Part shown: piece after piece, positions 25,983 to 31,514 of the stretch
How positions within the stretch are numbered: the stretch's first letter is position 1
Layout: each line of letters opens with the position of its first letter
Origin: Candidatus Saccharimonadota bacterium
GTDB taxonomy: Bacteria > Patescibacteriota > Saccharimonadia > Saccharimonadales > Saccharimonadaceae
Reading direction: 5' to 3'
Length of the DNA: 40,119 bases
Assembly (NCBI GenBank): GCA_027312225.1
Contig: DAICXK010000008.1
Location: 1-40,119 of the forward strand
The notes under the pieces: generated by a model
Told to the model about the DNA's origin: nothing
What the model saw: the letters and a program-made list of their open reading frames with translations, nothing else
Database searches by the model: none
Translations under genes and position numbers: made by a program

Positions 25983-26360
25983 TAGGCAGTTTATTAGACG
26001 ATCGCTTGTAGCATATACAAGAGGAAAGTCCGGGCAGCGTAGGATACGGCAGTTGCTAACGGCAACCGGGGGTAACCCTAGGGAAAGTGCCACAGAAACG
26101 ATACCGCCTCGATTATAACCAGTCTTGCAAGGTCCTTTCGGGGCTCGGCAATCACTGAGAGGTAAGGGTGAAACGAGTGAGGTAAAGGCTCACAGCGACG
26201 TATGGCGACATACGGAGGAGGTAAACCCTGTCGGCTGCAAGGAGGTCTGTATAAAGAGTGATCCGCTCGCAGGCCGATATCCGCTCGATTTTTTCGGCAA
26301 CGGAAAGACTAGATAGATGATCGTCCACGACAGAACCCGGCTTACCGATAGACTGCCAAC
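25983..26360 (+). ncRNA. rnpB: RNase P RNA (rnpB)
   Basis: Catalytic RNA that matures tRNA 5' ends. The conserved blocks are present: GAGGAAAGTCCGGGC (about 26021-26035), GGGTAACCCTAGGGAAAGTGCCACAGAAA, AGGTAAGGGTGAAACG, the GGAGGTAAACCC stretch and CAGAACCCGGCTTA near the 3' end (all named by segments shorter than the full motif). The 5' GGCAGT (25985-25990) pairs with ACTGCC (26352-26357) to form helix P1. At about 378 nt it is a type-A RNA. A symmetric terminator follows immediately. Confidence 0.97.
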
Positions 26361-29122: not shown

Positions 29123-29519
29123 GGGGCTGATATAGCTTTCGACAGAAGGATATTAACAGATTATTTTGCAAGCCGACCATACACGTACGTATATTTTTAA
29201 TTGCAAACCCAATTAAAACAGCATTTGCAAATCTAAAGAGTGCTATCACTCCTAAGTTTGCCTTTGCACCAATCGCAGCCTAATACGCGCGATCATCCCG
29301 TGTCATCAGGTGACATATCGGCAGGGGGTGTTATATTTATGTCACTTACTACGTATGTGCGCAGTGGTGCATACGCTAGGAAAGTTTTCCACGCAACAAT
29401 TCGGACATTTCTGTTTATCTTTTAGCCTGAAGAGTTGTAAATTATCAAGATAAACTAAGCTTGTAGACGAATAGTCAGTTACCTTTTGGACGCGGGGGCA
29501 GTACCCGCCAGCTCCACCA
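29123..29519 (+). ncRNA. ssrA: tmRNA (ssrA) with a 26-residue tag and unusual T loop
   Basis: Rescues stalled ribosomes. The 5' GGGGCTG pairs with 3' CAGCTCC, followed by discriminator A and an encoded CCA (29517-29519). The tRNA-like TTTCGACAG block follows the start. The tag is read from GCA at 29203 for 26 codons to TAA at 29281; it begins ANPIKTAFAN and ends KFAFAPIAA, whose last residues resemble the usual LAA degron. The T arm is GCGGG/CCCGC but its loop is GGCAGTA, not the conserved TTCRANY. The last 17 nt (without the final CA) recur at 29673-29689. Confidence 0.95.
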
Positions 29520-30586: not shown

Positions 30587-30615
30587 TTGACTGAAAAGCG
30601 TAACCGTGCTATTAT
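30587..30615 (+). promoter_or_regulatory. Consensus promoter of the large candidate RNA
   Basis: TTGACT (30587-30592) and TATTAT (30610-30615) are 17 bp apart; transcription would start near 30621, where the closing helix begins. Confidence 0.72.
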
Positions 30616-30620
30616 CAGTT

Positions 30621-31057
30621 CAAGCTTTTAGAAAAACAAAAAAAGCAAAAAATACCTTAACAACTCAGCTCGCTAGAACTATACCGACGATAATGATTCG
30701 ACGGAAATTCGGTGACGACAAAACAAAAAGACAAAACAAAAACTATGTTGCGCTAGGCGCATCAAGCACCTTCTTTACTTTTCTTTTGATCGTGGCGTCA
30801 CCGATGCTCCGCCTAAGTTTTTACGTGGCGTTGAGTCGCATCCGGAGTACTGATGCGCCTAGTATATTCCTTTTTTCGTTCATAAGTGGCGAAGACATGA
30901 TAGTACTAGGCGTATCGTGGAAACGATGCAAAATACTTGCCCCGAGTTTTCTCGGAGCGGTCAGTAAGCCAACGAGCGGCAGGCCGTTCATACAGTTCAC
31001 ACGCCCTATTATTTGATATACGGTGGCGTATGCTGCAACTGGGAACATATAAGCTTG
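30621..31057 (+). ncRNA. Candidate large structured RNA, family unknown
   Basis: About 437 nt behind a good promoter. The two ends pair: CAAGCTTTTA (30621-30630) with TATAAGCTTG (31048-31057), 9 of 10 bases. Inside are CCGACGA/TCGACGG (30684-30704), a perfect 12-bp helix CTAGGCGCATCA/TGATGCGCCTAG (30753-30764 with 30851-30862) enclosing CC-GATGC/GCATC-C-GG and CGCC/GGCG, a GTATCGT-GGAA-ACGATGC hairpin with a GNRA loop (about 30911-30929), and CCGAG-TTTT-CTCGG (about 30941-30955). TCGGTGACG (30709-30717) complements CGTCACCGA (30796-30804), which would form a pseudoknot. The overlapping 136-codon frame has poor codon use. No T-run terminator is visible at 31057. I recognise no known family. 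Confidence 0.6.
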
Positions 31058-31124
31058 TCGCTTTGGCTACCTTGGGTTATGTCCAAAGTATTATGACCTT
31101 ACATCGTGTATAGTAAGAAGCGAT

Positions 31125-31514
31125 ATGCTTGCTAGAATTCTTACGATTACTTCGATTATAAGCTTTTTTCTTTTAATGCTATTGTTGACAACAACAGCAC
31201 CAGGGAGTGCTGGTCCCGTTGTCATATTGCTGGTATTTATTCTGTTGTATTTGTCACTGCTTGGCGCGGTGACTTTTTTGTTGTACGCGGGGACACGCAT
31301 TGTATATTTCTTATCGCATCTGCTGACGAATCGTAAAGTGCGGACAAGACTATCGTTGAACCGTGCGTATCTTTACGCAACCGTGCTCGCTGCGCTACCT
31401 ATGATTGTTATGGGATTGTATTCCGTCGATGGCATACGCTGGTATGAGTTGCTTTTGGTAGGAATTTTTGGCTGCATTGGTGTGTTGTATATTACGCGTC
31501 GGACGAAAAGCTAA
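31125..31514 (+). CDS. Membrane protein with about four helices
   Basis: The 129-residue hydrophobic protein has helices at about 4-24, 27-58 (possibly two), 84-101 and 104-124. No family recognised. A TATAGT box at 31109-31114 ends ten bases before ATG and there is no Shine-Dalgarno sequence, so it is probably leaderless. The spacing to the next gene is 44 bp and includes that gene's own promoter. Confidence 0.75.
   Translation: MLARILTITSIISFFLLMLLLTTTAPGSAGPVVILLVFILLYLSLLGAVTFLLYAGTRIVYFLSHLLTNRKVRTRLSLNRAYLYATVLAALPMIVMGLYSVDGIRWYELLLVGIFGCIGVLYITRRTKS

Follow-up and report, generated by a model that had tools for sequence, protein, structure and literature searches.

OLE RNA, a transcript of ~600 nt in Bacillota, and its partner OapA, a protein of 21 kDa (PMC9723947, PMC12265935), are almost always encoded in tandem, and OapA binds the RNA and recruits it to the membrane (PMC9723947). 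GOLLD, ROOL and the raiA motif are likewise large, conserved, structured and independently transcribed RNAs, and their abstracts name no membrane-protein partner (PMC12286853, PMC11706538). Loss of both the signal recognition particle (SRP) RNA and Ffh has been reported for Parcubacteria (PMC4508563).

The window analysed here is a stretch of 40,119 nt from a Candidatus Saccharimonadota bacterium. It comes from the Patescibacteria, a very large assemblage of bacteria whose cells are ultra-small, whose genomes are stripped and most of which depend on a host. Positions 30622–31071 almost certainly form a standalone RNA gene, in which a consensus promoter is followed by a predicted transcript of ~450 nt with a structured, noncoding product. 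Large size, conservation, structure and independent transcription would place it beside GOLLD, ROOL and raiA, from which the absence of any Rfam match and the neighbouring membrane-protein gene set it apart.

The likeness to OLE is closer: both are large structured bacterial RNAs in tandem with the gene of a small transmembrane protein, an arrangement found here in 67 of 72 loci and in two other gene contexts, and in both the invariant unpaired segments are dispersed. Nevertheless, Rfam scans of the window and of homologous loci gave no match to the OLE covariance model. OapA (21 kDa) is larger than the window protein (~14 kDa), which has no Pfam or NCBIfam match, and binding and membrane localization have been shown for OLE, whereas the RNA–protein pair described here is known from its genes.

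A standalone gene for a structured RNA

The promoter described in a sequence-only reading of this DNA (TTGACT-17-TATTAT) is present and also carries an extended TG; the f1 homologues show the same promoter, and all 72 loci recovered by a pattern scan (below) have a promoter match upstream of the RNA. Promoter spacing and a conserved AAGCTTTTA set the 5′ end at ~30622, and the match of model R1 and a conserved GGCTCTC/GGCWCC place the 3′ end near 31071 rather than at 31057. A DNA-only search of 100 relatives recovered collinear conserved blocks with variable spacers between them in ~20 genomes of the same family; together with the conserved promoter, this pattern is typical of structured RNA genes. 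The RNA measures ~450 nt in the window and down to ~140 nt in relatives.

No Rfam 15 covariance model matched the window RNA above its gathering cut-off, and at homologous loci the only matches were to neighbouring tmRNA, RNase P and tRNA genes. Within the window, Rfam matches mark RNase P RNA (25986–26360) and tmRNA (29123–29519). The open-access papers searched, preprints being outside the search, describe no comparable noncoding RNA from Saccharibacteria or the CPR, and the RNA is undescribed in the sources searched (this literature and Rfam). The earlier proposal of a large, discrete structured RNA outside the described families, driven by its own promoter, is upheld, its transcript being predicted. 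A phage origin was rejected, as phage records and viral contigs gave no match. An Hfq-dependent sRNA was rejected as well, since Hfq was found in 0 of 16 genomes tested (5 of 14 controls). As a separate observation, the tmRNA gene scores 97 bits with Rfam and is missed by ARAGORN, as a divergent Saccharibacteria tmRNA.

The region also contains an open frame of 136 codons (30606–31016), which starts upstream of the predicted transcript, as had been noted. That this frame is a protein-coding gene, with the RNA structure as a by-product, has next to no probability. Its third-position excess is only weak (substitutions 7, 11, 15), and in a sister genome with 87% DNA identity several in-frame stops and frame-shifting indels break the frame, refuting it as a protein; homologues do not keep the reading frame. 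Folding energy is uninformative here, because it is significant on both strands: measured against 100 dinucleotide shuffles, the stretch folds more stably (z = −4.0), and so does its complement (z = −4.4).

Table 1. Features of the RNA gene and the adjacent membrane-protein gene in the window.
Feature	Position	Strand	Basis
Sigma-70 promoter, TTGACT (30587–30592), 17 nt, (TGC)TATTAT (30610–30615)	30587–30615	+	Sequence, f1 homologues, 72/72 loci
Structured noncoding RNA, ~450 nt	30622–31071	+	Both ends predicted
5′ hairpin GCUUUU (30624–30629)/AAAAGC (30641–30646), A-rich loop AGAAAAACAAA	30624–30646	+	f1 alignment
Conserved unpaired ACCUUAACAA	30654–30663	+	f1 alignment
Helix UCGGUGACG (30709–30717)/CGUCACCGA (30796–30804), extension 30719–30720/30793–30794	30709–30804	+	Covariation
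Hairpin CUC-CGCC/GGCG-UU-GAG	30807–30835	+	Sequence, f1 alignment
Hairpin 30852–30863/30905–30916, conserved internal loop	30852–30916	+	Covariation
Hairpin CCGAG-UUUU-CUCGG running into invariant GAGCGGUCAG (30955–30964)	30942–30964	+	
3′ domain, closing helix GCC..GAGCGGCAGGC (30968–30984)/GCUUGUCGCUU..GGC (31053–31067)	30968–31067	+	R1
3′ domain, inner helices	30986–30989/31043–31046; 30993–30997/31037–31041	+	R1
Apical hairpin, AU-rich loop, 2-nt bulge (GA in most relatives, UA in window)	30998–31034	+	
−10 element TATAGT of downstream gene (probably leaderless), 10 nt before ATG	31109–31114	+	
Uncharacterised 129-aa membrane protein, four predicted transmembrane (TM) segments, candidate partner	31125–31514	+	

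Helices maintained through compensatory change

Homologues were aligned domain by domain, and base pairs were counted against shuffled partners and against partners slid by 1–3 columns. The structures were partly drawn from the alignments that were scored, which tilts the slid control somewhat in their favour; the margins are nevertheless wide, and families that were not used to define the 3′ architecture show it again. Covariation was present in four independent alignments under both controls. In the 3′ domain, 88.3% of cells were paired and 25 of 35 pairs had changed on both sides, with a score of 0.496 as compared with at most 0.144 for slid partners. For the hairpin 30852–30863/30905–30916 the figures were 98.2%, 11 of 12 pairs, and 0.679 against at most 0.201, while in the shorter RNA from other families of the order 91.8% of cells were paired and 18 of 30 pairs showed both-side changes. 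Such changes affected 13/15, 4/4 and 5/5 pairs of the closing and two inner helices of R1. The alignments show the helices of the RNA to be maintained through compensatory change.

Judged against these alignments, the fold given in the sequence-only reading is mostly wrong, because its closing helix, 12-bp helix and pseudoknot are not what evolution keeps. The sequences of the end-to-end pairing, CAAGCTTTTA and TATAAGCTTG, are present, but the helix is not conserved: AAGCTTTTA at the 5′ end is nearly invariant, whereas its distant partner varies in homologues, with 3–9 of 10 positions pairable. Opposite the 5′ arm lies a conserved AAAAGC at a distance of 12 nt, and for the 3′ arm the alignments show a partner at 30974–30984, with strong covariation. 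The 12-bp helix (30753–30764/30851–30862) was paired in 47.5% of cells among homologues and so does not share in the covariation that the RNA as a whole displays, and its 3′ arm belongs to the covarying hairpin 30852–30863/30905–30916. Without this helix the 9-bp pairing 30709–30717/30796–30804 crosses nothing, and the pseudoknot falls. That 9-bp pairing itself was correctly identified (97.2% of cells paired; both-side changes in 8 of 11 pairs), as was the CCGAG/CTCGG hairpin, which is supported together with the whole 3′ domain.

The invariant unpaired elements of the RNA are the A-rich 5′ loop, GAGCGGUCAG and the bulged 3′ hairpin with its AU-rich loop. The A-rich loop (..ACAAAAACAAAAAC..) recurs throughout the class, in the f1 alignment, in other families and at 54 of the 72 pattern-scan loci, and the apical hairpin, captured by model R3, is the most widely shared element of all. 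Helix 30709–30804 encloses a local hairpin (~30747–30763) and a conserved GCACCUU (30766–30772). In roughly half of the window family, inspection by eye suggested a pairing of CUGACC (5′) with GGUCAG (3′), which, being invariant, gives no covariation signal. In the f39 RNAs (L146–L148) the upstream part carries ACCTCCTTTT/ACCUCCUUUU, which resembles an anti-Shine–Dalgarno sequence; contact with the ribosome or mRNA is possible both for this ACCTCCTTTT and for the GCACCUU (GCACCTT in the DNA) of the window family.

A single-copy RNA of Saccharibacteria with probable homologues beyond

Genome samples comprised one genome per species, many of them MAGs, and E-values are rough as a result of short calibration. 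At E ≤ 0.01, model R1, built for the window family, matched 86 of the 295 class genomes, including one (G118) judged false, because the match (L073) lies in apparent coding sequence and was put down to chance. Model R2, for the other families of the class, matched 98 of 295; the union, counted from the two lists, is ~157 of 295. About half of the class genomes, among them whole genera of the window's own family, thus have no model match. In one such genus (g2), however, a recognizable divergent copy was found in G270 (L143), making insensitivity of the models the likely explanation, not proved for the remaining genera. Copies are single in nearly all matching genomes, the exception being two overlapping matches in G190.

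A gapped pattern of 26 fixed bases found 72 loci in 84,980 species genomes. Where a taxon is given, all belong to Saccharibacteria, Saccharimonas/Saccharimonadia or Patescibacteria, and the rest are labelled ‘bacterium’. Model R3, which is limited to the apical 3′ hairpin and was trained on Saccharimonadia alone, gave low-scoring matches in other classes and in several other Patescibacteria families. Several of these (L180, L182, L183, L187, with L189, L192 and L200, and L158 and L172 judged by eye) have a promoter and, in most, a correctly placed A-rich loop, a motif with a background rate of 4.4%. This combination of promoter, A-rich loop and bulged 3′ hairpin makes homology to RNAs in other Patescibacteria families probable, although it is not proof. 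R3 matches L181, L186 and L188, and most matches with E > 0.01, come without the promoter and A-rich surroundings and were dismissed as chance.

A small membrane protein accompanies the RNA

A small hydrophobic ORF lies directly downstream of the RNA at 67 of the 72 pattern-scan loci. Its products are ~120 aa long (115–130 aa in the order), carry the motif T.P..xGP.G in the N-terminal part and, in many relatives, S(L/I).QL..RD, and match nothing in Pfam or NCBIfam. Profile comparison with hhalign gave 96–98% between the window family and other families of the class, and 94–96.5% when the window family and the class-level set were compared with f71, a family of a different class; unrelated small membrane proteins, used as controls, reached at most 13%. 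By these comparisons, homology of the membrane proteins extends beyond the boundaries of family and class, with a weak link for the pair f31–f71 (27%).

The surroundings of the pair vary. At the level of the order, the series runs comM/yifB (on the other strand), RNA, membrane protein, proline-rich protein, TraG-like ATPase; in other families of the class the order is trpS-RNA-memb-pheS-pheT, and in f71 it is RNA-memb-pheS. Pfam named comM/yifB, HIT and TraG-like genes in the window, the other gene names being assigned by eye from translations. The RNA and membrane-protein pair persists through three gene contexts and a change of class. Several further Patescibacteria have lgt, dksA-like/lspA, gmk or other genes (names by eye) after the RNA, implying that the membrane partner either was lost there or is not a universal companion. 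By eye, the RNA at L158, L200 and L182 lies beside lipoprotein-processing genes (lgt, lspA) and a dksA-like gene.

The order promoter, RNA, terminator, ORF, and the frequency of the downstream ORF, match what would be expected if the RNA were a very large riboswitch or attenuator, that is, a cis-regulatory leader of the membrane-protein gene. An intrinsic terminator lies between RNA and gene at 24 of 59 loci (0.5 expected), and a terminator alone also fits an attenuator. A leader of this kind is nonetheless unlikely. A −10 element stands right before the ATG of the membrane gene in many, though not all, loci (24 of 38 against 2.0 expected; in other families 18 of 59 against 4.5), and in the class-level relatives L146 and L148 a −10 also follows the terminator. 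At L149 and L150 an extra, unrelated ORF separates RNA and membrane gene (375 aa; 303 aa on the opposite strand), other genes follow the RNA in other classes, and its size and multi-domain conservation exceed those of ordinary leaders. The separate promoter, the insertions and the varied downstream genes favour an independent RNA. TATAAT-like elements 4–10 nt before an ATG were also noted at the start of the proline-rich gene in many loci, besides that at 31109–31127 in the window; these suggest that leaderless genes are widespread in Saccharibacteria.

Possible functions

We propose a trans-acting role: the RNA would be the scaffold of a ribonucleoprotein (RNP) that the small four-TM protein, whose gene follows immediately, would anchor at the cell membrane. 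The design would work like that of OLE RNA and OapA and yet represent a separate family. The ground for this reading is that the protein stays beside the RNA through complete changes of the genes around them; two-gene adjacency can also endure by chance or through co-regulation, and we consider the chances of a membrane RNP evenly balanced. Candidate outputs may include control of membrane stress, of the envelope or of translation.

The main competitor, which we regard as possible but rather doubtful, is a trans-acting housekeeping RNA that targets, for example, RNA polymerase or the ribosome, as 6S RNA or a hibernation factor does, with the membrane gene as a mere persistent neighbour. Near-ubiquity, single copy, a strong promoter and a position in the window close to the genes of RNase P RNA and tmRNA would suit such a role, as would the different downstream genes in some Patescibacteria. 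The lack of a confident match to 6S RNA (RF00013) here also speaks for this role. Plain synteny, however, explains poorly why the pairing with the membrane protein has outlasted two complete changes of neighbours. Like 6S RNA, the window RNA is standalone, has a strong promoter and is expected to be abundant, but it is multi-domain rather than one long hairpin with a central bubble, and Rfam scans gave no 6S resemblance. Identity with 6S RNA was rejected, since RF00013 matched neither the window nor its homologues and a sub-threshold hit in G062 belongs to another locus.

SRP RNA (RF00169) was found in 0/41, 0/192 and 0/14 genomes, and the Ffh M domain in 0 of 15 genomes as against 14 of 14 controls. 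The RNA is thus not SRP RNA, and a stand-in for the lost SRP RNA is very improbable: the GGUCAG motif that the two share by eye, the housekeeping-like distribution and the membrane-protein neighbour would fit, as would the failure to detect either SRP component in the Patescibacteria genomes tested, which agrees with the loss reported for Parcubacteria (PMC4508563), but the RNA has neither the GGAA tetraloop nor the AGCAGCC strand, matches no SRP model in Rfam, and would find no Ffh to bind.

To return to the membrane RNP, an RNA kept by most Saccharibacteria, and probably by other ultra-small parasites, beside a membrane-protein gene is likely to belong to their basic machinery. A single-copy RNA gene retained by so many stripped genomes beside an uncharacterised membrane protein is unlikely to be dispensable. 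We offer, as a tentative and on present evidence unlikely extension, that the RNA is common to the Patescibacteria/CPR and as basic as RNase P RNA or tmRNA, forming a membrane RNP with the four-TM protein that possibly offsets the loss of SRP. If so, this phylum-wide RNP would add to the OLE/OapA design a second lineage of independent origin. The locus provides a concrete test case for membrane-associated RNPs, so far represented by OLE, as a general bacterial design, and may bear on membrane-protein handling in cells without detectable SRP. A further consequence is that annotation overlooks, in these genomes, a conserved RNA of up to several hundred nucleotides.

On the minus strand upstream of the RNA, behind a TATAAT-like element, we also observed a conserved hairpin AGCACTT..AAGTGCT followed by CAAAAACAAAAACG (L059, L060, L063, L064, L066, L068, L070, L071, L074). 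This element is perhaps another leader or small RNA with a shared A-rich motif.
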